64,000 bases of DNA from a virus. The stretch covers positions 1-64,000 of the IMG/VR virus record IMGVR_UViG_3300017991_000062. One strand, 5' to 3'. Below are positions 3,591 through 28,015 of this stretch, one piece after another; position 1 is the first letter of the stretch; each line of letters starts with the position of its first letter. A program made the translations under genes and the position numbers. Below the pieces are notes generated by a model. It did not search any database and was not told where the DNA came from. It was given only the letters and a program-made list of their open reading frames with translations.

Positions 3591-3648
3591 CCACGGGGCC
3601 TTGACAGGAACGCAGGCATGCCCGAGCATCGGGCAGCAAGGAGGAGCG

Positions 3649-5142
3649 ATGTGCACACTGGGAGGGTTCGTCAGGACGACAGCGCGGGGCTTCGACTACG
3701 GGATGGTGAAGCGGATCGTGGAAGGCATCGACCTCCGCGGCCGTGACTCCTTCGGCGTGGTGGCCTGGTATGGCAAGCTCGACGGCTTTCGCCGGTACTG
3801 GTTCACGGACAAGGCCGCGCTCATGCCCACCGTCCAGAACATGATTTCGGAGGGTGCGCGGGCGGTGATGCTGGTCGGCCGCGCCATCCCGGCGGCCGAG
3901 CGAGTCGACGGCGTGAACCACGAGCGCGACACGCAGCCCTTCATCGCGGGCGGCATCGCCGTCGCCCACAACGGGCTCATCAGCAACGACGCCGAGCTGC
4001 GCGAGGAGCTGCACCTCTCCGACCTGTCGCCCGTGGATACCGCGGTCCTGCCCTACCTATTCGCGCAGAGCGGCGACTACCTGGAGCAGGTGGAGAAGCT
4101 GGAGGGCTCGTTCGCCCTCGCGGTGCTGGACTCGATGGACGCGAAGCTGCGCCTGGCGACCAACTTCATGCCGCTGTGGATGTACGGTGACGGCGGCTGT
4201 ATCTACTGGGGCTCGGACCAGAGGCAGAGCCCCGACCACCTGGAGCGCGTGCCCTACCACTCGGTCGTCACTATCAACCTCGACACGGGCGAGCAGCACG
4301 AGGCCCGGCTCCTGAACGAGCTGCACCCCGACCGGGTGGTGGTGGTGTGCTCGGGCGGGATGGACAGCTCCACGACGGCCGTGCTCTACAAGGCCCTCGG
4401 CTACGAGGTGGACCTGGTTCACTTCCGCTACGGCCAGCACGCCGAGGAGGTGGAGGAGTGGGCCACGGCCAAGCTCGCCGAGCACCTGGGCGTCCACCGG
4501 GTCAGCCTGGAGATGCGCGACGTGTTCGCCCAGGCCAGCGAGTCGCTCCTGCTCCGAGCCCACGGCCGGATGAGCGAGGAGGAGCGGGCCAAGCTGCGGC
4601 ACCTGGACATGGAGTCGACCATGTCCTACGTCGGCGCCCGCAACCTCGTCTTCAGCTCCATCGCCATGAGCATCGCCGAGTCGGTGGGCGCGGCCACGGT
4701 CGCCCTCGGGCTCAACATCGACGACAGCTCGTATCCCGATAACAACGTCACCTTCCTCGACGAGCTGACCGACGTGGGCAGCGTGGCCCTCAACTGGCAC
4801 AAGCGGGTCCGCATCCGAGCCCCGTTCGTGCACCTCACGAAGAAGGAGATCCTGGAGGTCGCCCTGGCCATCGGGGCGCCACTCGACCTCCACGCCTCCT
4901 GCTACTACCCGGAGTTCGAGGGCGACGGCCTGGCCTACTGCGGGGCGTGCGGCTGCGACAAGCTGCGCGAGTTCTCGTTTCGCGCCCTGGGCCTCATCGA
5001 CCCCGTACCGTATCGCGGTATCCGCGACTGGTCGGGCTGCCAGGACGTGAACGATGCTCGCCCCGACTACCTACGACGACGCAAGCACCTCGCCGTCCTG
5101 CGGCCCGAGCAGGTGCCCTATATCAACTTCATGGTGCTGTAG
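3649..5142 (+). CDS. queC: Glutamine amidotransferase-QueC fusion (preQ0 / ADG synthase)
   Basis: A 497-residue two-domain enzyme. Residues 1 to about 210 are a class II glutamine amidotransferase: the catalytic Cys2 directly follows the initiator Met, and RGRDSFG and HNGLISND (about 107-114) match the glutamine-binding loops of that fold. Residues about 225-470 are QueC. They have the P-loop SGGMDSS at 235-241 and a C-terminal zinc site (SCY at 417, then YCGACGCDK at 430-438). QueC converts 7-carboxy-7-deazaguanine, through the amide ADG, to preQ0 using ATP and ammonia; the fused domain would supply ammonia from glutamine. Gat-QueC fusions have been described in phages with deazaguanine DNA. 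The start is chosen by GGAGGAG at 3640-3646 and the need for Cys2. The queD, queE, folE and dpdA partners lie at 21269-25681. Confidence 0.93.
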   Translation: MCTLGGFVRTTARGFDYGMVKRIVEGIDLRGRDSFGVVAWYGKLDGFRRYWFTDKAALMPTVQNMISEGARAVMLVGRAIPAAERVDGVNHERDTQPFIAGGIAVAHNGLISNDAELREELHLSDLSPVDTAVLPYLFAQSGDYLEQVEKLEGSFALAVLDSMDAKLRLATNFMPLWMYGDGGCIYWGSDQRQSPDHLERVPYHSVVTINLDTGEQHEARLLNELHPDRVVVVCSGGMDSSTTAVLYKALGYEVDLVHFRYGQHAEEVEEWATAKLAEHLGVHRVSLEMRDVFAQASESLLLRAHGRMSEEERAKLRHLDMESTMSYVGARNLVFSSIAMSIAESVGAATVALGLNIDDSSYPDNNVTFLDELTDVGSVALNWHKRVRIRAPFVHLTKKEILEVALAIGAPLDLHASCYYPEFEGDGLAYCGACGCDKLREFSFRALGLIDPVPYRGIRDWSGCQDVNDARPDYLRRRKHLAVLRPEQVPYINFMVL

Positions 5143-9437: not shown

Positions 9438-9479
9438 CTTCTTCCTCCCGCTGTGCTGTGTATTGCTAACCATGCCCCC

Positions 9480-9555: not shown

Positions 9556-9706
9556 CAGATGCACTTTTTTTGCTTCGCGGCAGCGGTGCGGAGCTAAATT
9601 GTGGTTCGGCTCTGGTTCCGTAATGATACCACGAACTTGCGCGATGTTTTCTGTAAGCCCCTGTTTTGCTTCCGATCCCAGAACTGTCCTTGTGTGGAGG
9701 TGCAGC

Positions 9707-10294: not shown

Positions 10295-10295
10295 G

Positions 10296-10775
10296 CTACG
10301 CGGCGACCTTCCGGCCCTCGATGATGACCGTGGCCTCGCCCGAGGTGCCGGTGTCGGCGCCGGGGTTCGAGACGTAGAGGGTCGCGTTGTCGAGGATGAG
10401 CGGCTGCACCGCGTCGAGCGGCACGGGGAAGACCTTGCCGACGTCGGTGGCGCCGGTGATGGCCGTGGCCGCGAGGACGTCGGTGCCGCCGGCCGTGGTG
10501 CCGACCGCGATGGTCGCGTCGGCGTTCAGCGACACGGCCGCGTCGATCTTCACGAGCACCGTGGTCGGGATGAACTGGTAGGTGCCGTCGCCGCCGAGGG
10601 CCGCCTCGTAGTCGGTGGCACCACCATCCTTGAGGTCCACCTCGCTGACGCTGGCGCGGTCGTCGCGGTTCGCGACGTCGACGCACTCGTTGATGACTTC
10701 CTTGACCTTGGGGGCGTGGTCGTCTCCGATCCCGCTGCCGTCCAGGTCGCCGTCGATGAGTCGGTCAATGGCCAT
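10296..10775 (-). CDS. Hypothetical beta-rich, structural-looking protein
   Basis: This 159-residue leftward protein follows AAGGAGGG. The N-terminal 40 residues are acidic and helical. The remainder is a Gly/Thr/Ala-rich, beta-strand-like sequence (VLVKIDAAVSLNADATIAVG, then ATVIIEGRKVAA) that resembles phage decoration or fibre proteins rather than regulators. It has its own promoter candidate (10815-10844) and lies outside the main structural operon. Its role is unknown. Confidence 0.6.
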   Translation of the reverse strand: MAIDRLIDGDLDGSGIGDDHAPKVKEVINECVDVANRDDRASVSEVDLKDGGATDYEAALGGDGTYQFIPTTVLVKIDAAVSLNADATIAVGTTAGGTDVLAATAITGATDVGKVFPVPLDAVQPLILDNATLYVSNPGADTGTSGEATVIIEGRKVAA

Positions 10776-12687: not shown

Positions 12688-14139
12688 GTGACGGCGGCCT
12701 TGCCGGCAATCGAGATCACACCGGAGAACCGTGACGACGTAATCCGCGCCGCATCCGAGTTCCAGGGCCTCACCGATGAGATGATTCGCAGGGCCGTGCT
12801 GGTCGAGAGCCGGTTCGACATCCTCGCAACCGAGGTGCTCGAAATCGAGCTGGAAGAGGTCCACCTCGAACTGCTCGCGTACATGCTGGAGCAGGACGAG
12901 TCGCTGCACCTGGCGTTTCGAGGCTGCGGCAAGACGACCAGCGCTGTCGGCCCCTACGTCGTCGGCCGCATCCTTCAGGACCCCGAGCTGTGCGTACTCA
13001 TCGCGAGCCGGACCGGCACCTACGCCCAGACCATCATGCGACAGGTCAAGGGCCACCTGGTCAACGACAAGCTGGTCAGGATCTTCGGCGAGCAGAAAGA
13101 CCCGACGAAGTGGGAGGCCACCGAGTCCAACGTGCTCGGCAAAACGAAGAACACGAAGGAGGCCACGCTCACGGCGCTCGGTGCCGAGGGCAGCCTCACC
13201 GGCCGGCACTTTGACATCATCATCGTGGATGACCTGTGCGACCTGGAGAACACCAGGACCAGGGCACAGCGCAAGCGGATTCACGACTTCTACTACACCA
13301 CCCTCGACAACTGCCTCAAGCCTGGCGGCCAGCGCAAAGTCATCGGCACCCGCTACCATCCTCACGACCTGTACGGCTGGCTCTCGTCCAACGACCTCAA
13401 GGGTGCGGTGCAGATCGTGCCGGCCCTCCACGAGCATGAAGACGAGGACGGCGAGATCCGCTACGAGTCCAGCGCGCCTCGCAGGTTCACCGTCGAGTAC
13501 CTGCTGAAGAAGCGGGCCAAGACCCCGGCGCTCATCTGGCTGATGCAGATGCAGTGCATCGCCGCCCGGTTCCAGGGCAAGGTGTTCAAGCCCGAGTACT
13601 TCGAGGGTGAGGACTTCTACTTCACCGAGCTGCCCGAGGGTCAGCTCTACCAGGTGGTCGACCCGGCCGTGACCGAGAAGACGGAGAACGACTACTTCGC
13701 GCACATGACCGGCGTCGTGGACAGCGACGGGGATGTGTGGGTGGACAGCTACCACAACCTCCGCATCGAGTTCCCGAAGCAGGCGCCATTCTGCATCGAC
13801 GAGTTCGACGAGCGCGACCCGGTGCGGCTCGGCATCGAGAGCAACGCCTACCAGGCCGCGCTCGGCCAGGAGATCCTCGACAGGCGCCCAGACCTGAAGG
13901 GGCGCATTATCGGCGTCCAGACCGACAAGGACAAGGTCACCAGGGCGCTGAAATTGACTTCGTACTTTGAGGCGGGCAGAATCCACATGAGGCACGAACA
14001 CCGGGAGCTAGTCCAACAGCTTCTGGAGTTCCCTGACGGAGAGCACGATGACCTATTCGACGCCCTCGACTTGCTGGTGCGCATCGGAACCCGGATGAGG
14101 GTAAAGAAGAAGCGGCGCCGTGAGCCCGGCGTGATCTAG
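12688..14139 (+). CDS. terL: Large terminase subunit (ATPase-nuclease)
   Basis: A 483-residue DNA-packaging motor protein. The ATPase domain has a variant Walker A (FRGCGKTTS, about 79-87) and Walker B IIIVDDL (about 177-183). The C-terminal RNase H-like nuclease shows acidic residues in VVDPAV (about 326-331), GIESNA and HDDLFDAL. It cuts and translocates phage DNA into proheads at the portal. The GTG start follows GTGAGGGGGAGC. No recognisable small subunit is adjacent. Confidence 0.93.
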   Translation: MTAALPAIEITPENRDDVIRAASEFQGLTDEMIRRAVLVESRFDILATEVLEIELEEVHLELLAYMLEQDESLHLAFRGCGKTTSAVGPYVVGRILQDPELCVLIASRTGTYAQTIMRQVKGHLVNDKLVRIFGEQKDPTKWEATESNVLGKTKNTKEATLTALGAEGSLTGRHFDIIIVDDLCDLENTRTRAQRKRIHDFYYTTLDNCLKPGGQRKVIGTRYHPHDLYGWLSSNDLKGAVQIVPALHEHEDEDGEIRYESSAPRRFTVEYLLKKRAKTPALIWLMQMQCIAARFQGKVFKPEYFEGEDFYFTELPEGQLYQVVDPAVTEKTENDYFAHMTGVVDSDGDVWVDSYHNLRIEFPKQAPFCIDEFDERDPVRLGIESNAYQAALGQEILDRRPDLKGRIIGVQTDKDKVTRALKLTSYFEAGRIHMRHEHRELVQQLLEFPDGEHDDLFDALDLLVRIGTRMRVKKKRRREPGVI

Positions 14140-14148
14140 GAGGAGAGC

Positions 14149-15978
14149 ATGGGCGACAAGGTAACTCGCATCCGGCGCCGGCCTGTCATTGGGTCGTCGA
14201 AGTCTTCCCCCAGTGACGCCTCGTCCAGCTCGGTCGTCAGCCTGACCAAGGGAGCCGGGCCGCGTGCGGTGGTGAAGGCTCTGGTCGTGGAGGCCGACGA
14301 GAAGAAGGTCGACGGGCCGATCTCCCAGGTGATGCCCGACGACCCCTTCCGCGACTTGGTTCACTCGAAGATGGTGCTCGCGCCGCCGCTCGACCCGCGG
14401 CTGCTCACGGTGCTGTGGGAGCAGAACAGCTACCTCGGGCCGTGCATCGCCACGATGGCGGTCAACTGCGAGAGCTTCGGTCACCAGTTCACCCCTCGCA
14501 TCCAGGTCAACGACGAGACGCCGAAGGCTGTGCTGGCCCGCATGGAGGAGGAGAAGCTCCTGCTCGACAACTGGTTCAACAACTGCGTCATCGAGGGCGA
14601 GGACAGCTTCACCGGCCTGCGCATGCGGAAGCGGCAGGACGAGGAGGGTGTCGGATACGCGGCCTGGGAGGTGGTTGAGTTCAACACCGAGGTTCTGGGC
14701 TTCAACTACGTTCCGGCCCACACCGTCCGCTGTACCGGCCTGGACAAGATGCGGGTGCGGGCCTCGCACAAGATGCTGATGCGCCACGAGGACGGGACCT
14801 ACCGCTACATCGAGCGTCCGGTGTGGAAGCGGTTCCGCAAGTTCGTCCAGGTCCGCGGCTCGAAGATGCGGTGGTTCAAGGAGTACGGCGATCCGCGCAC
14901 GATGAACGCCGAGACCGGTGAGTACGTCAGCGGGCCTGGCGCCATCTCGGCCTACAAGAGGGCGAACTCGATCCTCTTCTTTGTGCAAGCCGCGGCCCGC
15001 ACCCCCTACGGTATCCCGCGGTACATCGGCAGCCTGCTCGGCATCTACGGCAGCCGCGCCACCGACGAGATCAACTTCTTCACCTTCGAGTCGAACAACG
15101 TCCCGAGCATGGCGGTCACCGTGTCGAACGGTATGCTCTCGGACGGCAGCGTGGACCGCATTCAGCAGTTCGTGGAGAAGCAGGCTTCCGGCCAGCGCAA
15201 CTATTCCCGCTTCCTCATCCTGGAGGCCGAGCCGGCGACGGACGGCCTGGGCGACCCGGGCCGGGTCGCACTCGACATCCAGCCGCTCACGGACCAGCAA
15301 CGCACCGACGCGATGTTCCTGAAGTACAAAGAGCAGGCCAAGGCCGACGTCCGTGGCGCCTTCCGGCTGCCCGACGTGTTCTTCGGCGAGGCGCCCCAGG
15401 GCGGCGCGGTCGGCGCGATGGAGACGATGCGCAAGCTGACCGACGAGCAGGTGTTCCTCCCCGAGCGCAACACCTTCGATGACCGCATGAATCGCCGCAT
15501 CCTGCCGGCCCTCGGCGTGGTGTACTGGCAGTTCAAGTCGAACACCCCGGAGACGACCGATAACAAGGACCTCATCCGCATCCTCGCGATGGCCGAGAAG
15601 TCGGGCGGCGTGAGCCCGGCCATCGCTCGCGAGATCATGAGCCGCGTCGTCGGTCACGACCTGGGCAAGGTCAAGGGCATCGACCCGGAGGTGCCCTACA
15701 CGCTCCAGGTCGCCCAGGCGCAGAAAACGGGCGGCGACCCGATGTCCACTGCCTCCCAGGCGGGAACCAACTCCCTGCGTCGGATGGGGGCCACTACGCG
15801 GGCAGAACTGGGGCTGGAGGACACTGCGAAGGCTAGCGAGGTCGAGACACCCTGGGAGGGCGAGGCTGTGCTCGCCGGCCTGGGCACGCTGGTCGATAGG
15901 ATCTCGGAGGAGCAGGAGGGGCGCACGGCCAAGGCCAAGGAGGTCAAGCGCGAGCGGCCCACGGTGAGCGGCGAGTAG
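14149..15978 (+). CDS. Portal protein (PBSX/SPP1-type)
   Basis: A 609-residue protein preceded by AGGAGGAG. Its position between terminase and MuF protein, its size, and the PBSX-like opening (DPFRDLVHSKMVLAPPLDPR, then LLTVLWEQNSYLGPCI) identify it as the dodecameric portal through which DNA enters the head. RTPYGIPRY and a C-terminal helical region (SGGVSPAIAREIMSRVVG) fit the crown and stem part of portals. The last about 90 residues are charged and probably flexible. Its stop lies eight bases before the MuF gene. Confidence 0.88.
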   Translation: MGDKVTRIRRRPVIGSSKSSPSDASSSSVVSLTKGAGPRAVVKALVVEADEKKVDGPISQVMPDDPFRDLVHSKMVLAPPLDPRLLTVLWEQNSYLGPCIATMAVNCESFGHQFTPRIQVNDETPKAVLARMEEEKLLLDNWFNNCVIEGEDSFTGLRMRKRQDEEGVGYAAWEVVEFNTEVLGFNYVPAHTVRCTGLDKMRVRASHKMLMRHEDGTYRYIERPVWKRFRKFVQVRGSKMRWFKEYGDPRTMNAETGEYVSGPGAISAYKRANSILFFVQAAARTPYGIPRYIGSLLGIYGSRATDEINFFTFESNNVPSMAVTVSNGMLSDGSVDRIQQFVEKQASGQRNYSRFLILEAEPATDGLGDPGRVALDIQPLTDQQRTDAMFLKYKEQAKADVRGAFRLPDVFFGEAPQGGAVGAMETMRKLTDEQVFLPERNTFDDRMNRRILPALGVVYWQFKSNTPETTDNKDLIRILAMAEKSGGVSPAIAREIMSRVVGHDLGKVKGIDPEVPYTLQVAQAQKTGGDPMSTASQAGTNSLRRMGATTRAELGLEDTAKASEVETPWEGEAVLAGLGTLVDRISEEQEGRTAKAKEVKRERPTVSGE

Positions 15979-15985: not shown

Positions 15986-18900
15986 ATGGCGCTTCCTGTC
16001 CAGACTGACGCGGTGGGCGACCTGCTCCACCGCATGACCGACGAACAGCTCTTCGTCGCCAAGGCGCAGGCACGCGAGGCCCTGGTGCTGGCCAGGGTCA
16101 TCAAGGTGGCCGACGCCTACCTCGCGGTCGAGGAGGACCTGGGCAAGCTGCTCGTCGGCCACTGGGATGACAAGGGCGCCGCGCTGGTGAAGAAGGGAGC
16201 CTCCGAGCTGGCCAAGGCCCAGGAGGGGAAGATCGTCCAGTCGACGCTGTACGAGAACCTCCTGAAGCTGAAGAAGCAGATGGGCAAGGAGTTCGGTGAG
16301 GAGATGCTCCCCCACCTCATCCGATCCTCGCTGCTCGTTTGGTCGATGAGCAGCAAGGAGACGATGGGGCGGCTCCAGCTCAAGTGGTCGACCGACCTGG
16401 TGGACAAGAAGGCTGCGGCGCAGCTCTCGAAGCATCACGCGTACTGGATCGGGAACCACTACAACACCTCCATCTCGGAGTCGCTGCGCCTGGCGACGAA
16501 AGAGGTCATCCTCGACGGCGGGCTGGCCGGCACACAGGCGGCCAAGGCGTACCGCGACATCACGACCGAGTACCTCGCAGGCAAGGGGAAGAAGTACCCC
16601 GGCGTTCCGCCCGGCTTCAAGGGCACGACCGACGACTACTTCGCAGGGGTGTCGAACCACGTCGGGACGCAGGCTAGGGTCTTCAGCCGGATGGAGTCGT
16701 ACCAGCGTGTCGGGATCACGACCTACCGGATCGTCGCGGTGCTGGACAACCGGACGAGCGATGTGTGCCGGATGATGCACGGCCAGACGTTCACCGTCGA
16801 GCAGGGCATGAAGACTGCCGGGGTGTGGACCCAGGGCATCGTCCACCCCGAGGTCGTGAAGAAGCAGGCCGGCTGGATGCGGCCGGCCGACATCGCGAAG
16901 ACGGCTGGCATCGCCTACACCCCGGGGGCTACCTCGCCGAAGATGAGCGCGAAGGGGATCGACGCGCTGGCCGAGAAGGGGCAGGCTCTCCCGCCCTATC
17001 ACTTCCGCTGCCGCACCGACGTCATCAGCTCGGGTGAGTACACCAGCTTCCCCACCGGGAGCGAGCCCAAGACCAAGCCCGTCAAGCCTCCGAAGAAGGA
17101 CCCGCCGAAGCCTCCCCCGGCTGCTCCGACCCCACCCGCGAAAGCGCCAGGCGCTTTCCCGTGGGCGATGACCGACATGACCCCCGTGCAGAAGTCTGCG
17201 AAGGGGATGCACTCGAAGCAGTTCTTCACCGACCCGAACGGCGATGAGTGGATGTTCAAGCCGGCACCGGAGGGGCTCAAGTTCCGCGCCGAGGTGGAGA
17301 AGCTCGCCGCCGATGCGGCCAGGGCTATTGGGGTTGACACGGCCGACGTCTATGTGGTGTCGCACAGGGGCAAGGCTGGCACCATCCAGCGGCTCTTCAA
17401 GGACGTGAAGCACGACGGCCTCGGCAACGTGGGCGTCAACGGCTTGTCGCAGAAGCAGGTCGCCGACCTCCAGCGGCAGCACGTCCTCGACTGGCTCATC
17501 GGGAATAACGACGGCCACCTCGACAACTTCCTGGTCCTGAAGAATGGCAAGCTGGTCGGCATCGACCGAGGGCAGGCGTTCCGATACTTCAAGACGGACA
17601 AGCTCGCCCTGGACTACAACCCGAACGCGAAGTACGGCATTGAGGTCTTCTACAACCGCTTCTTCGCCGCGGCCCGCGACGGCAAGCTACGCAAGGGTGT
17701 CCAGATGCTCGGCATGGACAGCCCCGAGATCCAAGCGCTGCTGAAGCAGGTGGGCAGCGTGAGCGACGACGAGTGGCTTGCCATCTGGAAGCCGTACATC
17801 GACGGCGCCCTGAAGAACCAGCGGCTCGCATACGGCAGCCGCAAGGCGTTCGAGGCCGAGTTGCTGCGGCGGAAGAACGAGCTGGCCGGCGACCTCGGTG
17901 AGTTCTACCGGAAGATTCTGGGCGAGGCTGCCAAGCCTGCGCCCAGGGTGTCGGCCCCGGCCGCGGCCCAGGGCAAGGCCATGACGCCGGTCGACGCGAA
18001 GTTCGTCAAAGCGATGCGCGACTCGAAGAACCGCGGCCGGTCGATCCTGGTGTCCACCGAGCGCGTCGAGAATGGCAACCTGCTCGTTTACACCTACGAC
18101 GACGGGACGGTGGTGGTCGAAGGCAAGCTGCGCGCTGGTGTCGGCGACCGGACAGCGCAGAAGCGGCTCCTCGGTTCGGAAGCCAAGGCCAAGGCGCCAC
18201 CCCCGTCCACCCCGGGCTCCGGGACCGATGGGTACTGGGACGAGGCCCTCACCTACATCAAGCATGTCAACTACCACCTCGGGCCGGGTGGCGACGGTGT
18301 CTTGAGCGGTGCCAAGAACAAGAGCTTCGAGGCGTTCATGGAGCTGCTCGAAGACATCTCCAAGAGCAAGACGGCTACCAGCGCGGAGAAGGCCGCGGCG
18401 AGGTATTACAAGAAGAAGCTCAAAATCTACGGCGACGAGAATGGCGGCTTCTTCACCGAGGAGAAGCTCAAGTCGACGGCCGTGGGGAAGAAGATCGATC
18501 CCTACAAGCCGAAGCCGAAGGCGACCAAGCCCAAGCCGAAAGCGGCGCCAGGCGAGAGCAACGGGATGAGCCCGCGGGTCAAGTCCTCGAAGGTGACCCA
18601 GATGGGCGAGGAGTCCCGGGAGATTGTCGACGGAAGCATCGTCAACCACCACGGCACCATGTCGCCGAGTGCATACGGCGGGAGCCGCGAGATCGACCGG
18701 ATGATCGTGGCCACCCTCGACGACGGCACCGAAATCACCTACATCCCACACGACGGGTACAAACAGGGGCAGGCGTACTCGCGGCAGGGCCGCTTCAGGA
18801 TCAAGGTGAGGGGGAAGGCCGGGAAGCCGGCCAGCAAGGAGCAGGTCGAGCAGGCCGTGGCCGCGCTGGACGACTTGGGCGTCAACACCCGGCTGATGAC

Positions 18901-19687
18901 GAAGCAGGACTTCGAGCTGCTCTACCTACGCAAGAATCAGTTCGCGATGGGGTGGGGCAACGACCAGGTGTTCGCAGGCGTCCCGACGACCGGCGACAAG
19001 GCCGAGCAGATCGAGGCGATGGTCAAGGCGTTCAAGAAGAAGCTCGGCCGCGACCCCCGCAAGATGCCGGGGTACAACCCGAACCCTCACTACTATAGCA
19101 GCGACGGCAACGGCATCGTCCGCTTCCAGCGGTTCGACATCTCGGATGCCGACCTTAAGAAGGCCAACCTCCAATTCGTCTCCGAGGTAACCGGCAGCGA
19201 GGACGCAGCATCGCTCTTGCTCAAGGTCATCGACGGCGAGACCGGCGGCCTCATCGCGACCGAGGAGAAGATCCGGCGCGGCATCCCGATCTCCGGGATG
19301 TCGCCTGTCGCTGACCAGTCGACCGGCGGTGCGCAGTTCGTGTTCACCAGGGCGCGGCGCAAGGCGAGGGTCAGTGGCCGGAACCGAATCGTGATGAGGA
19401 ACGACCTCGCACGCGACACGAACCTGGTGTCTTACAACGGTGACAAGTACGGTCGCATGGACTCGGCATTCAAGGAGCGCAACCGGGCCAAGGATCTGAA
19501 GGGCATCGAGGGACATATCGCGCGCCACGACAACGAGACGCTCTTCAAAAACGAGGTGCCCCTGGAGCAGTGGGACCACATCACCGTTTCGGCCGCGCAG
19601 AAAAAGACTCTGCTCGCAGAGCTGAAGGCGCGTGGTGTCACGCGCATCGCTGGCAAGCCGGTCAACCAGTTCGTACAGGCGAGGTGA
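15986..19687 (+). CDS. MuF-type head protein fused to HipA/PI-kinase-like and further C-terminal domains
   Basis: A very long (1233-residue) version of the SPP1 gp7 / Mu gpF minor head protein, which is usually 300-500 residues. Residues about 1-350 are the MuF part, with DNRTSDVCRMMHGQ (about 253-266) and the diagnostic end PPYHFRCRTDV (about 335-345). A Pro/Lys linker (about 365-388) follows. Residues about 397-650 look like a HipA/PI-kinase fold: MFKPA as ATP-lysine loop, IGNNDGHLDNF (about 504-514) as catalytic loop, and GIDRGQAF (about 525-532) as the metal-binding DFG equivalent. Residues about 665-830 are small alpha/beta pieces. The last about 375 residues are unassigned, ending with a NETLFKNEVPLEQW stretch faintly like ADP-ribosyltransferase ends. 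MuF proteins enter the virion, so the kinase may be injected. Confidence 0.8.
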   Translation: MALPVQTDAVGDLLHRMTDEQLFVAKAQAREALVLARVIKVADAYLAVEEDLGKLLVGHWDDKGAALVKKGASELAKAQEGKIVQSTLYENLLKLKKQMGKEFGEEMLPHLIRSSLLVWSMSSKETMGRLQLKWSTDLVDKKAAAQLSKHHAYWIGNHYNTSISESLRLATKEVILDGGLAGTQAAKAYRDITTEYLAGKGKKYPGVPPGFKGTTDDYFAGVSNHVGTQARVFSRMESYQRVGITTYRIVAVLDNRTSDVCRMMHGQTFTVEQGMKTAGVWTQGIVHPEVVKKQAGWMRPADIAKTAGIAYTPGATSPKMSAKGIDALAEKGQALPPYHFRCRTDVISSGEYTSFPTGSEPKTKPVKPPKKDPPKPPPAAPTPPAKAPGAFPWAMTDMTPVQKSAKGMHSKQFFTDPNGDEWMFKPAPEGLKFRAEVEKLAADAARAIGVDTADVYVVSHRGKAGTIQRLFKDVKHDGLGNVGVNGLSQKQVADLQRQHVLDWLIGNNDGHLDNFLVLKNGKLVGIDRGQAFRYFKTDKLALDYNPNAKYGIEVFYNRFFAAARDGKLRKGVQMLGMDSPEIQALLKQVGSVSDDEWLAIWKPYIDGALKNQRLAYGSRKAFEAELLRRKNELAGDLGEFYRKILGEAAKPAPRVSAPAAAQGKAMTPVDAKFVKAMRDSKNRGRSILVSTERVENGNLLVYTYDDGTVVVEGKLRAGVGDRTAQKRLLGSEAKAKAPPPSTPGSGTDGYWDEALTYIKHVNYHLGPGGDGVLSGAKNKSFEAFMELLEDISKSKTATSAEKAAARYYKKKLKIYGDENGGFFTEEKLKSTAVGKKIDPYKPKPKATKPKPKAAPGESNGMSPRVKSSKVTQMGEESREIVDGSIVNHHGTMSPSAYGGSREIDRMIVATLDDGTEITYIPHDGYKQGQAYSRQGRFRIKVRGKAGKPASKEQVEQAVAALDDLGVNTRLMTKQDFELLYLRKNQFAMGWGNDQVFAGVPTTGDKAEQIEAMVKAFKKKLGRDPRKMPGYNPNPHYYSSDGNGIVRFQRFDISDADLKKANLQFVSEVTGSEDAASLLLKVIDGETGGLIATEEKIRRGIPISGMSPVADQSTGGAQFVFTRARRKARVSGRNRIVMRNDLARDTNLVSYNGDKYGRMDSAFKERNRAKDLKGIEGHIARHDNETLFKNEVPLEQWDHITVSAAQKKTLLAELKARGVTRIAGKPVNQFVQAR

Positions 19688-20471: not shown

Positions 20472-20656
20472 GCGAGCGACACCCATCACGGCCGGACCCG
20501 ATGCCCGAGCTGGAAGAGCTGTACCTCGCTGGTCGGCTGACCGAGGCGCAGTTCCAGAAGCGACTCCTTGCCGAGCACACCCTCGAAGGCGCCGACCGGC
20601 TGCGGAAGCGGTGGGCTGCTCGCAAGGCCACCCTGGACAAGGAGGCCCAGTCGTGA
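20468..20656 (+). CDS. 62-residue SHOCT-like helical protein
   Basis: A short protein with GGAGGAAAG before the ATG. The segment PELEELYLAGRLTEAQFQKR resembles the SHOCT oligomerisation motif (leucine-rich helix, Gly, then T/S-x-x-E/Q-F). A basic helical C-terminus follows. It probably forms small helical assemblies; the partner is unknown. Its stop overlaps the next GTG (GTGA). Confidence 0.6.
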   Translation: MSERHPSRPDPMPELEELYLAGRLTEAQFQKRLLAEHTLEGADRLRKRWAARKATLDKEAQS

Positions 20657-21285
20657 AGATCAAGGATGTGAAACCCGCGGTGCTGCGCGAGGTGTCGGAC
20701 AAGGAGCTGCTTTCCCTGCACCTGCGCACTCACCAGCTCTACGGCGCGAACTTCGGGCCGGACGCACCTGCCGGCCGCGGCTACAAGGACGACAAGGGTG
20801 TCGACGCAGTGGATGGGCTGCGGCTCTCCGACGACGGCGCCCTCGCCATCTGGAAGGGCGCTGCGAAGGTGGTGCGGCTGCGCGAGCGCCTGGGCAACTT
20901 CGGGCGGCCGTTCTTCCTCCTGTCGCCGAGCTATGCCTACGGCATCATCCGGCTCGGCAAGCCGCGCAAGGACAGCAACGACTATCCGGTCGAGTACTTC
21001 CGCGGTTTCAAGGTGCCCCTGAAGTACGAGGCGACGGGCGACGGCACCATCCCGCAGAAGGTGGCCATCGTGGGCGAGGAGAAGATGAGCCTGGAGGACC
21101 TGGTTCACGCCCACCTGTTCATCAAGGAGGAGATGGAGCGGCGCAAGCTCGACCACAACCGGGTGAGCGAGCTGGACGACGAGAAGCTGCCCACGGCCAA
21201 GGCCGCCGAGGTGCTCCTGGACCGCGAGCTGACATTCTGGGCTGCCGGTGAGGAAGGCGAGGTGCTCGATGTGGACAGTGCGTAA
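20653..21285 (+). CDS. Hypothetical protein preceding queD
   Basis: A 210-residue protein starting at a GTG overlapping the previous stop. The first part has LSLHLRTHQLYGANFG. The middle is a beta-rich module (KVVRLRERLGNFGRPFFLLS, YAYGIIRLG). The last third is helical, with EDLVHAHLFIKEEMERRKL. Pieces of this layout appear to recur in phage proteins near XkdF-type proteases, but I cannot assign a function. It overlaps queD by 17 bases, placing it in the same operon as the modification genes. Confidence 0.6.
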   Translation: MKIKDVKPAVLREVSDKELLSLHLRTHQLYGANFGPDAPAGRGYKDDKGVDAVDGLRLSDDGALAIWKGAAKVVRLRERLGNFGRPFFLLSPSYAYGIIRLGKPRKDSNDYPVEYFRGFKVPLKYEATGDGTIPQKVAIVGEEKMSLEDLVHAHLFIKEEMERRKLDHNRVSELDDEKLPTAKAAEVLLDRELTFWAAGEEGEVLDVDSA

Positions 21286-21649
21286 GGTTGTCGAGTTCGA
21301 TTCCGCTCACCACCTGCCGGACCACCCCGGGAAGTGCAAGCGCCTCCACGGCCATCGCTGGAAGGTCGTGATTGAGGTGGCCGCGGCCGAGCTGGACGGC
21401 GAGGGCATGGTCTGCGACTTCGGCGAGCTGGGCCGCCCCGTCAAGGAGCTGGACCACGCCTACCTCAACGACGTACCCCCATTTGACACGACCCCTCCCA
21501 CGGCCGAGAACCTCGCGAAGTGGGTGGTCGACCAGGTGCGTCCGCTGGTGCCGAACGCCTGCCGGGTGATGGCCACCGTGAGCGAGACGCCGGGCAACGA
21601 TGCCTCGTTCCTGTGGGTGCGCGACTTCTGCGAAGCTGGCCTGCCGTGA
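21269..21649 (+). CDS. queD: 6-carboxy-tetrahydropterin synthase
   Basis: A 126-residue enzyme of the PTPS/QueD family (usual length about 120-140). It converts dihydroneopterin triphosphate, made by FolE, to 6-carboxytetrahydropterin in 7-deazaguanine synthesis. Visible residues: zinc histidines in SAHHLPDHPGKCKRLHGHRW (His14, His27, His29) and catalytic Cys23 in GKC, then PTAENLAKWV and the SETPG end motif. The start is the ATG inside the previous gene after GAAGGCGAGG; a longer GTG version from 21248 is possible. GTGA overlap with queE. Confidence 0.93.
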   Translation: MWTVRKVVEFDSAHHLPDHPGKCKRLHGHRWKVVIEVAAAELDGEGMVCDFGELGRPVKELDHAYLNDVPPFDTTPPTAENLAKWVVDQVRPLVPNACRVMATVSETPGNDASFLWVRDFCEAGLP

Positions 21650-22254
21650 CCCGGGGCAAGCTCTACCAAGTGGCCGACTGCTTCTACTCGCTCCAGGGCG
21701 AGGGCGGCCGGGCCGGCGCGCCGTCTGTCTTCCTGCGCTTCGCGGGGTGTAACCTGCACTGCACGAAGGCGACGGCCGGCTTCGACTGCGATACCGACCA
21801 TCAGGCGAACCTGCTCCTGCCCCTGGGCGGTGTGGTGCAGGTGGTCAAGGTGGCCGACCTGGGCGACTGCGGGTGGGTGGTGCTGACCGGTGGCGAGCCC
21901 GCGCTTCAGCTCGACACCGAGCTGGTCGAGGCACTCCACGGAGCCGGCTATCGCCTGGCGGTGGAGTCCAACGGCACCCTCTCCCTTCCTGACGGCATCG
22001 ACTGGGTGACGGTGTCGCCCAAGCGAGGCTCGGGGCCGCTCGCCGCCCGCAACGCGACCGAGGTCAAGGTGGTGATGCAGGCCGGCGACCCGCTGCCCGA
22101 GTGCGACATCGAAGCTGACTACTACTACTTGAGCCCGGCCCACGATGGCGACCAGATCGACCAGGCCGCGCTCGATCACTGCGTTCGGCTGTGCCTTGAG
22201 AACCCGAGGTGGAAGCTCTCGACGCAGCAACACAAGGCATGGAGGATCAAATGA
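21646..22254 (+). CDS. queE: 7-carboxy-7-deazaguanine synthase (radical SAM)
   Basis: A 202-residue radical-SAM enzyme turning 6-carboxytetrahydropterin into 7-carboxy-7-deazaguanine (CDG). It opens with FYSLQGEG, the conserved QueE substrate loop, then the cluster cysteines Cys35, Cys39 and Cys48 in GCNLHC...FDCDTD, followed by TGGEP. The spacing C-x3-C-x8-C differs from the classical radical-SAM CxxxCxxC; QueE enzymes are known to vary here. VSPKRG in the C-terminal half matches the SPK motif of the family. The start is the GTG overlapping queD's stop, and ATGA overlaps folE. Confidence 0.93.
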
Positions 22255-22820
22255 CGGGGGAACAGCGGCAGGAGGCCGAGGCGCTGGTGCGGCGGATGCT
22301 GGAGCTGATTGGGGACGACCCAGAGCGACAGGGGCTCAAAGATACCCCGGCGAGGGTGGTGCGGTCGTGGACGGAGCTGTTCGGCGGCTACAGCGAAGAT
22401 CCGGCCGACCTGGTGCGAACCTTTGACACCACCTACGACCAGATCGTCGTCTGCGAGGGCATCGACTACTTCTCCACCTGCGAGCACCACCTGCTCCCGT
22501 TCCACGGCCACGCTCACGTCGCCTACCTGCCCCAGGAGAAAGGTCGCGTGCTCGGGCTGTCGAAGATGGTGCGCATCGTCCAGGTGTACGCCCGGCGGCT
22601 TCAGATCCAAGAGCAGATGACCGAGCAGATCGCCGAGGCGATTCAGTCAGCTATCGACCCCAAGGGTGTCGCCGTGGTGGTCGAGGGGCAGCACCTCTGC
22701 ATGATGGCTCGCGGGGTGAAGCAGGCCCACGCGACGATGAAGACTTCTTGCCTCCTCGGGGCGTTCCGTGATGATATGGCGGCACGAGCCGAGGTGCTGT
22801 CGCTCCTGGGCGTGCGGTAG
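22251..22820 (+). CDS. folE: GTP cyclohydrolase I
   Basis: A 189-residue enzyme, close to the usual 190-220, making dihydroneopterin triphosphate from GTP, the first step to preQ0. Zinc ligands are visible as Cys77 and His80 in [10 protein letters not shown] and Cys150 in QHLCMMARG. Catalytic-pocket histidines lie in [31 protein letters not shown] is the standard FolE helix. The ATG overlapping queE's TGA is preferred; ATGs at 22209 and 22239 would extend it. Having its own FolE lets the phage boost GTP flow to deazaguanine independent of host folate control. Confidence 0.94.
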
Positions 22821-22828: not shown

Positions 22829-25681
22829 ATGGGCTACGGCGTGAAGGACTTCCACTACTACTTCGCGGTCGACCGAGCCGACTACCGCAAGTTCGGGCAC
22901 CTGCTCCAGGGTGGCGACATTCTGGTCAGCTACGTGTACCTCCGAGAGGCGGCCGACAAGAAAGGCGAGTTCCTCGCGGACGTGAAGGCCCACAAGGGCC
23001 GGGTGATGCTGGACAGCGGCGGCTTCACCAACTTCTTCACGCCTGGCAGCGTCAAGTTCAAAGACTGGGCCGACTTCGTGAAGTCGAACCAGAGCTGGCT
23101 CGATGAGGTGGTGCAGTTCGACGACCTCAAGAGCAGGCGCAAGACGCTCGACTTCTACGACGAGGCCATCAAGCTCGGGCTCGACCCGCTGTTCGTGGAC
23201 CACCTGCGCTTCCACACCGAGAAGGATCGGGCCGGGAAAATCTGGAAGGCCAAGCCCAAGGTCTGCATCGCCGGCTTCGGCAAGGCCAAGCCCGACCAGG
23301 ACAAGAAGAGCCCGGTGTATGACGCGAAGCGGCTGCACGAGGCGTTCGTGCAGGGCCGCGAGGTGAAGACCGTCGTGCACATGCTCGGCGTCGGCAGCAT
23401 CAAGAAGTTCCTCCCGTGGCTCGACGTCATCCACAGCGTCGACTCGGCGAGCTGGGACAAGGCTGCGGCGTTCGGGAAGGTGCTGGTGCTCCAGGCGGAG
23501 GATCTGGGCGACGGTATCAAGATCCCGATCCTGAAGAACTACACCTACCCCGGCAACCCGCGGCGCACCGACCACCCGATCCCGCGCGAGCAGATGGACG
23601 CCGACTGGAACGGGCCGGTGAAGCGGCTCAAGCTCGACAAGTGGTCGGTCACGCAGCGGGCCAAGGGCGTCACCATCTACCACATGAAGCGCTATGTGGA
23701 GGCGGTGCGCAAGCTCGACCCGGTGAAGCTGACGAAGCAGCTCGAAGAGCTGCGCGCGGCCAAGGCCGAGGCGGGCTCGACCAGTTACTTCTTCCTCGGT
23801 GACGACTTCTGGTACGAGCCCGACCCGACGCCCGTGGCCAAGGACGACGGCGAGCAGCTCGACCGCGGCGAGGTCATGGGCCACCTGGAGCAGGCCGGTT
23901 CCTTCGTGGTGGTGCCCGGCTTTGTGTCGCTGGTCGGTTCGACGCTGACAGGCCAGGACGGTGACCCGGCCAAGGACGTCGACCTGCTCGTTCGCGCTGA
24001 CGAGGTGGACCCCAAGGTGGCGGTGAAGCTGGAGCGCCTGTTCCCGCCCGAGATGCAGGGCAAGGTCCACGTCGTCGGCGATGCCCAGGGCCCGAACTGG
24101 AAGCACCTGCCACTCTACGACCTGGTCGCCCGCAAGCGGGAGAAGCTGGTCGCAGTGGAGGTCGATGAGCCCGACTACCAACCCTTCCCGACGCAGCCTG
24201 GCGCTGGACGCCCGAACCTGACCAAGGTGGTGAAGCAGGGCACCGACCTCGACCCTGCCGAAACCGAGCTGACCCGGGAGGAGGCGCGCGAGCTGACGGA
24301 GGCGGTGCAGGGCGACCCCTACCAGGTGGAGCAGAAGGGGAAGCGGAAGTACCGCTTCGTCCTTCAGCACCACTACCGCGGCTTCTGGAGCGAGGACGAG
24401 CGGAAGCAGATCCGGTCGATGCTGCGTCAGGCCCAGGCCGCGGCCAAGGCCGGCGACACGAAGAAGGCCGAGGGGCTGCTCAATGGGGTGTGGTCCGACT
24501 TCAAGCCGGTGCGCCTCAAGTCCGACATCGACGCGGTGAAGACCGCTGCCCAGGCTGCCGAGGATGCGAGCGACGGCAACGTCGGCGCGGCCGTGCGGCG
24601 CAATCTGACCTCCGACGTTCCCGGGCTGGACAAGCTGGCCGGTGTCGAGGGCAGCATCGTCAACCTCGGCAACGTCCACACCGACCTGCGGATGGAGAGT
24701 CCGGCCGGTAAGTGGCTCGTTGGCTGGACGCTGGACACCCCCAAGGTCGCGCTCCAGACGCTCGACGGCAAGGCGCACAACCTGCTCCGCTGCAAGGTGA
24801 TGGACAACCGCGAGGGCGACAACATCGTCGCGCAGCGCAAGCTCGTCCAGCCGGTGTCGTGGCTCACCATCGTCAGCAAGGAGAAGCCCGTCGTGACGAC
24901 GGCGCCAGGCGAGGCCGGCTCGACTGCCGGCACCACTGGTGAGTTCCACTACGTCGACTCGGGCGAGGTCATCTTCGGCGTGCAGAAGACCGACTTCCAC
25001 GAGTACTTCCTCTTCCCCAAGTCGGGCAAGTGGGGCGGCCGGTGGGGCATCCAGATCGTGGAGGGGAAGCCCGACTATGAGAAGGCGCCCGGCGAGTTCT
25101 GGATGGCCAACCGGCCCGCGAAGACGCAGGAGCCGTACATCCAGACCCACGACCGGAAGAAGGAGGAGGCCAAGGCCAAGGAGGACGGGGTCGACGTGGT
25201 GTGGAACCCCGACACCGTGCCTGCGCTGCGGGCTGCCGGCTACAAGCCGCTCAAGGACGAGGTGAAGAAGGACGCGGACGACGTGGTGCGCGTCGCCCTC
25301 CAGGTTCCCATCGCGAAGGTTGCCAAGGAAGAGCGATACGTCATGGGAATCGTGATGGTCCCGGAGGCCACCGACGCCCACGGCGAGAAGGCCACGGCCA
25401 AGGAGATCCGGGAGGCCGCTCACAAATTTCTTGTCAGCGGAGCGAAGATCGGGTATCAACATCAAGAGATCCCAGGTGGCCTAGTACTGCTGGAGAGTTA
25501 CCTTGCCCCGGTCGAATTCAAGCTCGGTAACAAGACCATCCCGAAGGGGACGTGGCTCATGGCCGTGCGGGTCAATAACGATGAGGTCTGGAAAGAGGTC
25601 AAGGCCGGACGCATCACTGGGTTCAGCATCGAGGGCTACGCGAAGAAGGTCCCGCTGAAGCCGAAGCCGAAGGAGAGCTGA
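22829..25681 (+). CDS. DpdA-like transglycosylase fused to NTase-like, LigD-PE-like and XkdF prohead-protease domains
   Basis: A 950-residue multidomain protein after TAGGAGGCGTC. Residues about 1-300 resemble DpdA/TGT enzymes, which swap guanine for a 7-deazaguanine. VMLDSGGF (Asp62) matches the TGT substrate Asp. HMLGVGS... IHSVDSASW (Asp205) matches the nucleophile region. The TGT zinc cysteines are not visible. Residues about 365-445 hold a nucleotidyltransferase-like GS-x11-DVD pattern (Gly370-Ser371, Asp383, Asp385). Residues about 508-640 have RFVLQHH and VHTDLRMES, as in the LigD 3'-phosphoesterase family. Residues about 820-945 are XkdF-type protease (YVMGIVMVPEATDAHGE, KIGYQHQE, GFSIEGYAKK). 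It follows folE by eight bases and precedes the scaffold by one. The combination links DNA modification with head maturation. Confidence 0.85.
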   Translation: MGYGVKDFHYYFAVDRADYRKFGHLLQGGDILVSYVYLREAADKKGEFLADVKAHKGRVMLDSGGFTNFFTPGSVKFKDWADFVKSNQSWLDEVVQFDDLKSRRKTLDFYDEAIKLGLDPLFVDHLRFHTEKDRAGKIWKAKPKVCIAGFGKAKPDQDKKSPVYDAKRLHEAFVQGREVKTVVHMLGVGSIKKFLPWLDVIHSVDSASWDKAAAFGKVLVLQAEDLGDGIKIPILKNYTYPGNPRRTDHPIPREQMDADWNGPVKRLKLDKWSVTQRAKGVTIYHMKRYVEAVRKLDPVKLTKQLEELRAAKAEAGSTSYFFLGDDFWYEPDPTPVAKDDGEQLDRGEVMGHLEQAGSFVVVPGFVSLVGSTLTGQDGDPAKDVDLLVRADEVDPKVAVKLERLFPPEMQGKVHVVGDAQGPNWKHLPLYDLVARKREKLVAVEVDEPDYQPFPTQPGAGRPNLTKVVKQGTDLDPAETELTREEARELTEAVQGDPYQVEQKGKRKYRFVLQHHYRGFWSEDERKQIRSMLRQAQAAAKAGDTKKAEGLLNGVWSDFKPVRLKSDIDAVKTAAQAAEDASDGNVGAAVRRNLTSDVPGLDKLAGVEGSIVNLGNVHTDLRMESPAGKWLVGWTLDTPKVALQTLDGKAHNLLRCKVMDNREGDNIVAQRKLVQPVSWLTIVSKEKPVVTTAPGEAGSTAGTTGEFHYVDSGEVIFGVQKTDFHEYFLFPKSGKWGGRWGIQIVEGKPDYEKAPGEFWMANRPAKTQEPYIQTHDRKKEEAKAKEDGVDVVWNPDTVPALRAAGYKPLKDEVKKDADDVVRVALQVPIAKVAKEERYVMGIVMVPEATDAHGEKATAKEIREAAHKFLVSGAKIGYQHQEIPGGLVLLESYLAPVEFKLGNKTIPKGTWLMAVRVNNDEVWKEVKAGRITGFSIEGYAKKVPLKPKPKES

Positions 25682-25682: not shown

Positions 25683-26732
25683 GTGTCCGACAAGGAAGCC
25701 CACACAGAACTTCGCGACATCCGGGTCACGAACGTCGACCTGGTGGACCAAGCTGCGAACGAGCAGAGCTTCGAGGTAGTCAAACGGAAGGAGGGCCGTA
25801 GCATGGCCGACAAGACCAAGGTGCGCAAGGACGCGGAGACCGAGGAGGAGCAGGTCGCGGAGGAGGTCGCCAGCGGCGCCGACACCGACACCAGCACCGA
25901 CACCGACACGGACACCGAGGCCGGGGCCGGCGGCGACTCCGATGGTGGGGAGGACAACTCCGAGGGCGACGACGCCACGCCCGTCGAGAAGGCGACCGCC
26001 GCGATGGTGGACCTCGTCGGCAAGCTGGAGGGCGTGCTCGACAGCCTGGTCGACAAGGGCAAGAAGGAGACCAAGGCCGAGGGCGAGGAGGACGAGGAGG
26101 AGACCGGCAAGACCAAGAAGGCCGAGCCCGCGGCGATGGTCAAGGCGTGCCTCGACAAGCTCTCCAAGATGGAGGACCTGCCCGAGGCGGCCAAGAAGCT
26201 CGTCGCCGACGCGGTCGACGCCCTGGCCAAGATGGGCGACGACTACCCCTCGGCCGCCGAGAAGGAGAAGGCCGAGAAGAAGAAGGCCGAGGAGAAGAAG
26301 AAGGCCGAGGGCGAGGACGACGAGGACGGCGAGGTCGCCAAGGCCGGCCGGAAGATCAGCGCCAAGAACGTCAAGGTCCTCCAGGCCGCGGCCGACTCCC
26401 TGGGCAAGGCCACCGAGGCGCTCACCGGCATGCTCAAGGAGGCCAAGGGCGGCGACGACGAGGAGGAGACCGGCAAGACCAAGAAGTCGGCCGACGCCTC
26501 CGACGCCGAGACCGAGGCCCTGGTCAAGCTGACCAAGGCGGCCGACACGCTGGTCGACGGCGTGGGCAAGCTGGCCAAGCGGCTCGACGACATCGAGGCC
26601 GGCGTGGGCATCACCAAGTCGCTCGGCGACGACGAGGGTGACGACACCAAGGTCGAGAAGTCGGGCGTCTGGACCGGCGAGGGGTCGAGCCTGGCGCTCG
26701 TCCCGCCGGGCTTCGGCGGCGCCAAGAAGTAG
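25683..26732 (+). CDS. Acidic scaffold-like protein
   Basis: This 349-residue protein starts at a GTG one base after the protease gene. The first 38 residues (ELRDIRVTNVDLVDQAANEQ) resemble the sequence that often follows XkdF domains. The rest is extremely rich in Glu, Lys, Ala and Asp with coiled-coil-like helices and a TDTDTDTE repeat. Location between protease and capsid and this composition indicate a head scaffold, probably cleaved by the XkdF domain. An internal ATG at 25803 after GGAGGG could give a shorter form lacking the N-terminal segment. Confidence 0.75.
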   Translation: MSDKEAHTELRDIRVTNVDLVDQAANEQSFEVVKRKEGRSMADKTKVRKDAETEEEQVAEEVASGADTDTSTDTDTDTEAGAGGDSDGGEDNSEGDDATPVEKATAAMVDLVGKLEGVLDSLVDKGKKETKAEGEEDEEETGKTKKAEPAAMVKACLDKLSKMEDLPEAAKKLVADAVDALAKMGDDYPSAAEKEKAEKKKAEEKKKAEGEDDEDGEVAKAGRKISAKNVKVLQAAADSLGKATEALTGMLKEAKGGDDEEETGKTKKSADASDAETEALVKLTKAADTLVDGVGKLAKRLDDIEAGVGITKSLGDDEGDDTKVEKSGVWTGEGSSLALVPPGFGGAKK

Positions 26733-26809: not shown

Positions 26810-28015
26810 ATGTCCGTACCGAACGAGGAAGTCCTGCGCAAGGCGGTCATCACCACCGATGCCATCACGTCGGCAGGCAAGCTCAACCCCGTCCAGGCGG
26901 ATCGGTTCATCGACTACGTCTGGGACATCACCAAGCTCAAGGGCCACGCGCGCACCGTGAAGTTCCGCGCCGAGGAGCTGTACATCGACAAGGTCGGTGT
27001 CGGCACCCGCGTCGCGGTCCCCAAGGTGGAGGCGGTGGACCCGGGCGTTCGCCGGGGCATCAGCACCTCGCGGGTGACCCTCCACCCCGAGGAGACGATG
27101 TGCCCCTTCGAGGTCTCCTACGAGATGCTCGATGAGAACCTGGAGGGCGAGGCCTTCGCCGAGCACCTCGTGAAGATGTTCGCGACCCAGTACGCGAACG
27201 ACACCGAGGAGCTGTTCATCCAGGGCGACAAGCTCGGCGCGGCCATCCTGGAGTCCGAGTACGTCGCGGGCGGCTCGACCACCCAGTACATCAAGGACGC
27301 CTACCTGGCCCTCCAGGACGGCTGGCTCACCCTGGCCCGGCAGGGCCACGGCGTCGACTTCGCGGGCGCGAACATCTCCAACCGGCTCTTCAGCCGGCTC
27401 ATCAACGCCCTGCCCGAGAAGTTCAAGCGGGACCGCTCCAAGCTGCGCTTCTTCACGAGCACGGACCTGGAGCAGAACTTCCGCGAGAAGACGGCCGCCC
27501 GCGCCACCGGCAAGGGCGACGACGCCCTGATGTCCAGCGCGCCGCTGACCCCCTTCGGCATCCCGCTCATCGGCATCCCGCTCCTCCCCTTCCAGCCGAA
27601 GACGGTGGAGCACCTGACCCTGACCGGCACCACGGCCGTCCCGCTCCTGTACAAGAACGTGACGAACGTGACCGTGCTCCCGAGCACCCTCGACAAGACG
27701 CCGACCACCCCGTACACCGAGGGCGCCGGCAACGACTACATCCTGGACGCGGTCAACGGCACCATCGCGCGTGATGCCGCCTCGACCATCCCGAGCGGTG
27801 CCACGGTCAAGGTCACCTACCAGGCGCAGGCCCAGATCATCCTGACCCACGAGTCGAACTTCATCATCGGCATGGGCCGCGACTCGATCCGCCTGGAGAG
27901 CGACCGCGACATCTTCAAGTCGACCCTCCAGTACTCGCTGACTGCGAAGGTCGCCTGCGAGTTCGAGGAGGCCGACGCCATCGCCTTCGGCTACAACGTC
28001 GGCCTCGGCGTCTAG
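26810..28015 (+). CDS. Major capsid protein (HK97 fold)
   Basis: A 401-residue protein with a strong AGGAGGG site. Position after protease and scaffold, size, and features such as an N-terminal helix, an E-loop-like stretch (RVAVPKVEAVDPGVRRGIST), and a C-terminal strand (LTHESNFIIGMGRDSIRLES) fit the HK97-fold capsid of PBSX/XkdG-type phages. The mid-part LSNRLFSRLINALPEKF region forms a P-domain helix. It is followed by a strong hairpin terminator, as expected for an abundant product. Confidence 0.85.
   Translation: MSVPNEEVLRKAVITTDAITSAGKLNPVQADRFIDYVWDITKLKGHARTVKFRAEELYIDKVGVGTRVAVPKVEAVDPGVRRGISTSRVTLHPEETMCPFEVSYEMLDENLEGEAFAEHLVKMFATQYANDTEELFIQGDKLGAAILESEYVAGGSTTQYIKDAYLALQDGWLTLARQGHGVDFAGANISNRLFSRLINALPEKFKRDRSKLRFFTSTDLEQNFREKTAARATGKGDDALMSSAPLTPFGIPLIGIPLLPFQPKTVEHLTLTGTTAVPLLYKNVTNVTVLPSTLDKTPTTPYTEGAGNDYILDAVNGTIARDAASTIPSGATVKVTYQAQAQIILTHESNFIIGMGRDSIRLESDRDIFKSTLQYSLTAKVACEFEEADAIAFGYNVGLGV

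Follow-up and report, generated by a model that had tools for sequence, protein, structure and literature searches.

Phage DNA modification is normally viewed as a cytosolic event that takes place at the time of replication, apart from capsid assembly. In phage 9g, Gat-QueC and DpdA put archaeosine (dG+) into DNA, and pathways with a plain QueC give dPreQ0 (PMC6884629). In polyvalent proteins a metalloprotease domain is thought to process the protein that carries it (PMC5512222). The P1 proteins DdrB, DarA and DarB are head-associated, and DarA and DarB protect DNA (PMC5512222, PMC12810830). We analyzed a window of 64,000 nucleotides, positions 1 to 64,000 of the 113,077-base (113-kb) IMG/VR virus record IMGVR_UViG_3300017991_000062, which comes from a large uncultured virus of bacteria or archaea. 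One of its genes encodes a DpdA-type DNA transglycosylase domain and an XkdF-type head maturation protease in a single chain of 950 amino acids (aa). Our best reading, with a probability of about 0.6, is that the product is a self-processing head polyprotein that would bring DNA-modification and end-repair enzymes to the prohead. The gene and its parts are:

22829..25681, + strand: fusion protein of 950 aa, DpdA - nucleotidyltransferase (NTase)-like - LigD-phosphoesterase (PE)-like - XkdF protease; a single open reading frame (ORF) with the Shine-Dalgarno (SD) sequence TAGGAGG
22829..23758, + strand: DpdA/TGT-type DNA transglycosylase domain, residues 1-310, with candidate catalytic D62 and D205 and conserved H184 (phrog_887, tblastn, alignments, model)
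23852..24178, + strand: NTase-like segment, residues ~342-450, with GS-x11-DVD and a later conserved Asp in LPLYDLV (our own hidden Markov model; motif level only)
24296..25219, + strand: LigD 3'-PE-like domain, residues ~490-797 (to ~800), with H514/H515 and H617-x-D619-x-R621 (Foldseek, hhalign, conservation)
25310..25651, + strand: XkdF (PF14550) head maturation protease domain, residues 828-940, with conserved H878 and S933 (Pfam E=1.1e-30, alignment)

All the component families are already known; their combination with the head protease appears to be new. Like the phage DpdAs (Enterobacteria phage 9g type; Seuratvirus/Queuovirinae; PMC6884629), the N-terminal domain has the TIM-barrel TGT fold, the DSG and SxDSxxW motifs, a conserved His and accompanying base-synthesis genes. 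The known DpdAs examined, however, are stand-alone genes of ~300 aa, mostly by replication genes, whereas this one forms the N-terminus of a head-protease polyprotein in the structural block. The C-terminal domain is like Peptidase_S78_2/XkdF (PF14550; PHROG 3017) in its full-length match, its His and Ser, and its place directly 5' of the scaffold and capsid genes. The XkdF genes of cultured phages examined code for about 135-545 aa without DpdA, while here 820 residues of other domains precede XkdF. Many cultured-phage XkdF proteins are labeled 'DNA methyltransferase'; these labels were rejected as evidence of fusion because the short proteins so labeled, at about 135-210 aa, consist of the protease alone. 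The PE-like domain shares its predicted fold and HxDxR motif with the LigD 3'-phosphoesterase superfamily (3p43, 3p4h) but has a long insertion between two conserved His-containing segments, with no Ku found in the record and a ligase only in relatives.

Polyvalent proteins such as P1 DdrB and DarB (PMC5512222) are also multidomain phage proteins in which a protease is joined to DNA-modifying or counter-restriction domains and modules are swapped. The fusion protein falls within that description, being multidomain, with a protease domain and in a virion gene context. The protease of polyvalent proteins is a zincin-like MPTase, however, whereas here it is the head-maturation protease itself. 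The polyvalent hub domains MPTase, SNF2-methylase, DarA and the LPDs were all absent from a Pfam scan of the fusion protein, with InPase seen only in a distant PE relative, and the text of the polyvalent-protein paper contains no XkdF and no DNA-base transglycosylase (PMC5512222). PHROG 13242 likewise joins a DNA-modification domain to XkdF, but the match is to a D12-type DNA methyltransferase in place of DpdA, and no PE, NTase or ligase was noted. The ANMV-1 virus protein AJP62006, whose gene lies directly after portal, has the NTase-like, ligase and PE-like parts in the same order but, unlike the window protein, matches neither DpdA nor XkdF. No earlier description of a DpdA, methyltransferase or LigD fused to a head-maturation protease was found in the literature, of which subscription papers were incompletely covered; the first-pass annotation, made from the DNA letters alone, had also known of no such case.

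The fusion gene is uninterrupted from the ATG at 22829 to the stop at 25681, and its strong ribosome-binding site lies immediately 5' of the ATG. The profile phrog_887 matches residues 12-225 (E=6.3e-12), while the Pfam TGT profile PF01702 gave nothing at E<=1 across six records, the window's own among them. Searching 50,697 phage records with residues 1-314 (tblastn) gave 52 weak matches. Almost all of these lie in genes annotated as queuine-TGT/DpdA, from phages of the 9g/Seuratvirus and Vibrio Queuovirinae type, or in genes of DpdA phages that carry no annotation. A scan of viral contigs with the domain as a single sequence gave nothing; matches came only with an alignment as query. D62 (in DSGGF), H184 and D205 (in SVDSASW) align with the DSG, the DpdA-conserved His and the SxDSSSW of known DpdAs and are invariant across 36 DpdA sequences, with D62 and D205 corresponding to the two catalytic Asp of DpdA. 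An AlphaFold model of the domain (mean local confidence, pLDDT, 85; predicted template modeling score, pTM, 0.85) was compared with the PDB using Foldseek. The top 21 matches were TGTs, the TGT-like Cap10 and the DNA preQ0 insertase DpdA 7ui4, with E down to 8.5e-7. By profile, predicted structure and conserved residues, residues 1-310 are a DpdA/TGT-type transglycosylase domain of predicted activity. The first-pass annotation had suggested such a domain with Asp62 and Asp205; the family is recovered by both profile and structure, with both residues in place. The fusion gene is the sole phrog_887 match in the record, in which no second DpdA or canonical TGT was found.

At the other end of the chain, where the same annotation had placed an XkdF-type protease, PF14550 scores 106.7 bits against a gathering cutoff of 24. 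H878 and S933 are retained across the aligned XkdF polyproteins and are probably the catalytic residues. PF14550 has no second match in the record, and in each of six related records it likewise matches once. No conserved internal start precedes XkdF in the nearest relatives (L003, L018 and L116 among our numbered loci), so there the protease should be made within the long chain. Internal initiation as a conserved route to a free XkdF was rejected on the same ground.

Between the two ends, the LigD-like assignment made earlier from motifs gains support from structure. In a model of residues 331-950 the region ~490-800 is the best predicted (pLDDT mostly >90). The only two significant PDB matches of that model in Foldseek are archaeal LigD 3'-phosphoesterases, 3p43 and 3p4h (E 1e-4 and 2.8e-4; probability 1.00; target template modeling score 0.69 and 0.77). 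An hhalign comparison of seven phage sequences with a two-sequence LigD-PE probe gave E=3.5e-5 and a probability of 72, which serves as supporting evidence only, one of the two probe sequences (the first) having been compared with LigD-PE chains in the PDB. H617 and D619 are invariant in the aligned relatives. Sequence profiles found no LigD-PE match, with no Pfam match even at E=10 for the compact relatives, and sequence searches of the PE and NTase regions against the PDB gave nothing meaningful. Residues ~490-800 thus fold, as modeled, like a LigD 3'-phosphoesterase, and the activity is predicted. The Ku protein of bacterial Ku/LigD non-homologous end joining (PF02735) has no match in the record, and Ku-dependent end joining was rejected on that basis. 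The NTase-like segment carries GS-x11-DVD at 370-385 (G370-S371, D383, D385), which fits the Pol-beta-type motif hG[GS]x9-13Dh[DE]h, and is conserved in L003, L018, L004 and ANMV-1. The motif that the first-pass annotation had pointed out is therefore real and conserved, but its fold found no profile or structure support, and calling the segment NTase-like is a guess at the level of the motif.

The window protein belongs to a wider family of XkdF polyproteins, usually with an ATP-dependent DNA ligase, a family that the first-pass annotation had missed. The same DpdA-XkdF fusion is found in four other IMG/VR records from three further lineages (L003, L037/L039 and L038), two of these lineages having a different backbone. 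L003 encodes DpdA-NTase-ligase-PE-XkdF in 1374 aa and L038 DpdA-ligase-PE-XkdF; L037 and L039 carry nearly identical DpdA fusions, with L039 beginning within DpdA. Other members lack DpdA. L018 has two D12 adenine methyltransferases with NTase, ligase, PE and XkdF, and L116 (IMGVR_UViG_3300028920_002860, 1873-10404) encodes a polyprotein of 2845 aa in which five stretches match C5 cytosine methyltransferases, alongside NTase-like, ATP-dependent ligase, PE-like and XkdF parts. L125 combines ligase, D12, PE and XkdF; L120, L121 and L126 have NTase, ligase, PE and XkdF; and in L004 the parts are split over two genes. AJP62006 (L007 3200-5797), annotated as an ATP-dependent DNA ligase, also has the NTase-like and PE-like regions but no XkdF match, and its C-terminal part has no assignment. 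L123 (7075-10299) joins a ferritin-like domain, possibly Dps-like, to PE-like and XkdF parts; it would be unusual for a head protease to bear a protein that protects DNA. In L119 (3842-6970) an inorganic pyrophosphatase (PF18823) and DUF5661 lie ahead of the PE-like domain, and the contig ends before any XkdF could show.

Within this family the DpdA module has moved from one backbone to another. The window DpdA shares 47% identity with the DpdA of L003, 48% with that of L037 and 51% with that of L038. In the same order, the values for XkdF are 73, 39 and 41%, and the window XkdF reaches 77% identity with the one in L116, where cytosine methyltransferases take the place of DpdA. In a tree with 38 stand-alone DpdAs the fused DpdAs form one clade (support 100), but the XkdFs of the DpdA-bearing polyproteins do not (p-AU, approximately unbiased test, 0.0004), which places one fusion-type DpdA lineage on two backbones. 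The domain at the start of the L018 and L116 polyproteins is encoded on its own in the window and L003, by the gene immediately 5' of queD. These arrangements are consistent with a course of events in which a cassette queD-queE-folE-dpdA displaced the methyltransferase part and so separated the front domain from the chain.

The genes for base synthesis that accompany DpdA in the window are:

3601..5142, + strand: Gat-QueC fusion (QueC 2.5e-42, GATase_6 2e-13); likely start ATG 3646, Met-Cys
21248..21649, + strand: queD (TIGR03367, above cutoff)
21646..22254, + strand: queE (TIGR04508 E=3e-46, under its cutoff; phrog_2076); probable GTG start overlapping the queD stop
22239..22820, + strand: folE (PF01227 E=9e-69); ORF from GTG 22209, probable ATG start 22239

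FolE, QueD, QueE and Gat-QueC make up the gene set of the phage 9g type dG+ pathway. As the first-pass annotation had it, queD, queE and folE lie directly 5' of the fusion gene; the same is so in L003 and L038, and queE and folE are so placed in L037, whose contig begins there. FolE is encoded in 3/3 DpdA-bearing records tested and in 0/3 polyprotein records without DpdA, some of the records being fragments. The window has Gat-QueC where L003 has queC and a Vut_1-type transporter, so dG+ is predicted for the window and dPreQ0 for L003. The first-pass annotation had spoken of preQ0-type bases and missed that, by analogy with phage 9g, the DNA base of the window phage is predicted to be archaeosine rather than preQ0. 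The Vut_1-type (YhhQ-like) transporter of L003 (4892-5392) lies between queC and the DpdA polyprotein and possibly imports a preQ0 precursor.

The fusion gene and its queD, queE and folE belong to a head block transcribed in one direction: terminase, portal, MuF-type, two small genes, the 224-aa gene, queD, queE, folE, fusion, scaffold-like and probable capsid. The other assigned genes of the block are:

12688..14139, + strand: terminase large subunit (phrog_38 E=1.6e-67)
14149..15978, + strand: portal protein (phrog_12 E=2.7e-21)
15986..19687, + strand: MuF-type minor head protein with a HipA/PI3K-like kinase segment (profile matches)
20611..21285, + strand: 224-aa gene upstream of queD, counterpart of the front domain of the L018 and L116 polyproteins
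25683..26732, + strand: putative scaffold/head assembly protein directly 3' of the fusion gene (weak phrog_3017 match)
26810..28015, + strand: probable major capsid protein (phrog_1623 'virion structural protein' E=3e-70; place after scaffold)

A homologue of the scaffold-like gene is in the same position in L003, L018 and L116. The MuF-type protein of the window is lengthened to 1233 aa by the HipA_C/PI3K-like kinase segment and more sequence without assignment; a comparable long form is encoded in L018 (507-4163), while the MuF protein of L003 has just 354 aa. The kinase segment is possibly a virion-delivered kinase. Elsewhere in the same virus record (G000), an ADP-ribosylglycohydrolase-type gene (PF03747; L010 8234-9148, record 91234-92148) may counter an ADP-ribosylation defence. 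Another ORF (L011 4323-5780, record 106324-107781) looks at its start like a PP-loop/N-type ATP pyrophosphatase (SYGMGVDSTA), with no Pfam match. A search for the host through prophages, in which 84,980 genomes were scanned twice using PE alignments, gave no matches.

The grounds counted for the polyprotein reading are the domain identities, the conserved residues, the uniqueness in the record, the recurrence, the module swapping and the que association. With the sole head protease found located in the chain, and no conserved internal start in the closest relatives, it is simplest to suppose that the chain arrives at the prohead in full. The XkdF end, as the only head-maturation protease detected in the phage, is expected to be incorporated into the prohead. 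The DpdA front, the only base-inserting transglycosylase detected, would swap guanine in the phage DNA for a 7-deazaguanine supplied by FolE, QueD, QueE and Gat-QueC, with dG+ as the predicted product. The PE-like domain and NTase-like segment, plus the ATP-dependent ligase in relatives, may clean up DNA ends or nicks and seal them again. Being translated together in a single chain, the enzymes would have a set dose and would be carried to the site of head assembly. XkdF would most likely cut the chain in the prohead, leaving DpdA, PE and NTase at the packaging site, where the freed enzymes would work on DNA soon to be, or already, packaged and possibly enter the next cell with it. Enzyme activity, self-cleavage, head location and timing are all predicted from sequence. 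The first-pass annotation had proposed that modification is coupled to head assembly or packaging or, as another possibility, that the protease frees an active modification enzyme by self-cleavage. The predicted coupling is strengthened because a single polypeptide carries both the sole DpdA and the sole XkdF detected in the record, because DpdA and DNA methyltransferases are interchangeable parts of the same polyprotein and because the que genes track DpdA.

Several observations weigh against this reading. XkdF could cut only scaffold and capsid and never its own chain. Weak SD-like GTG codons lie near the XkdF boundary in the window, with weak sites also in L120-L122, and a separate XkdF may be made in the window through internal initiation. 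The repair set appears incomplete in the window phage, as no ATP-dependent DNA ligase of the relatives' family is found in the protein or elsewhere in the record. Residues ~340-450 have no PDB, Pfam, profile or structure match to an NTase fold, and the model is of low confidence there. IMG/VR records are possibly incomplete as well, and an only copy is here the only copy found.

Among other explanations, the one that survives best, though we consider it doubtful, is that the N-terminal domains are antirestriction or repair cargo, packaged and ejected with the DNA so as to act, in the manner of polyvalent proteins or P1 DarB, once in the next host. It overlaps our preferred reading, which leaves the moment of action open. 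A protease with a methylase and DNA-acting enzymes follows the same logic as polyvalent proteins (PMC5512222), a MuF-kinase fusion lies in the same head block, and the pyrophosphatase fused to PE in L119 is a polyvalent-type InPase domain. DpdA needs 7-deazaguanine, however, and the que genes are phage-encoded, which would place modification most simply in the producing cell. It is rather unlikely that the chain is only an expression polyprotein, cut early by XkdF or a host protease. The head would then receive the XkdF piece alone, and DpdA would act, as it does in phage 9g, on DNA replicating in the cytosol. Stand-alone DpdA with Gat-QueC is enough for dG+ in plasmid DNA (PMC6884629), the free base required for TGT-type exchange is made in the cytosol, and DpdA modules shift between backbones. 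Against it, the que cassette lies within the head gene block beside the scaffold and capsid genes, and expression convenience alone does not predict unrelated DNA-modifying modules repeatedly on the same protease.

We consider it very improbable that DpdA is degenerate and retained by the protease protein for a structural or DNA-binding role. The fused DpdAs are on a long branch, and they, the window copy included, are only about 20-24% identical to known stand-alone DpdAs. Against degeneracy, the Asp and His motifs are retained though the fused copies share only 40-51% identity, base-synthesis genes accompany DpdA, FolE is absent where DpdA is replaced, and the record has no other DpdA/TGT. 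An assembly or frameshift artefact joining two genes, the possibility raised in the first-pass annotation, has a negligible chance given the same fusion in independent assemblies and the intact SD and frame.

More tentatively than for the window protein itself, we suggest a wider class of head polyproteins in tailed phages. In these the chain of the head-maturation protease would also hold DNA-modification enzymes that can be exchanged for one another (DpdA or methyltransferases for adenine or cytosine), together with NTase, ATP ligase and 3'-phosphoesterase as a LigD-like set for end repair. The enzymes would be delivered and freed in the prohead, with the genome modified and its ends repaired during or after packaging. 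In the window phage the only base-inserting enzyme found sits on the head protease, where related phages have methyltransferases and end-repair enzymes. Were the chain processed in the prohead, both modification and repair would belong to packaging. The sequences fused 5' of XkdF are also a place to look for new DNA-modification enzymes.

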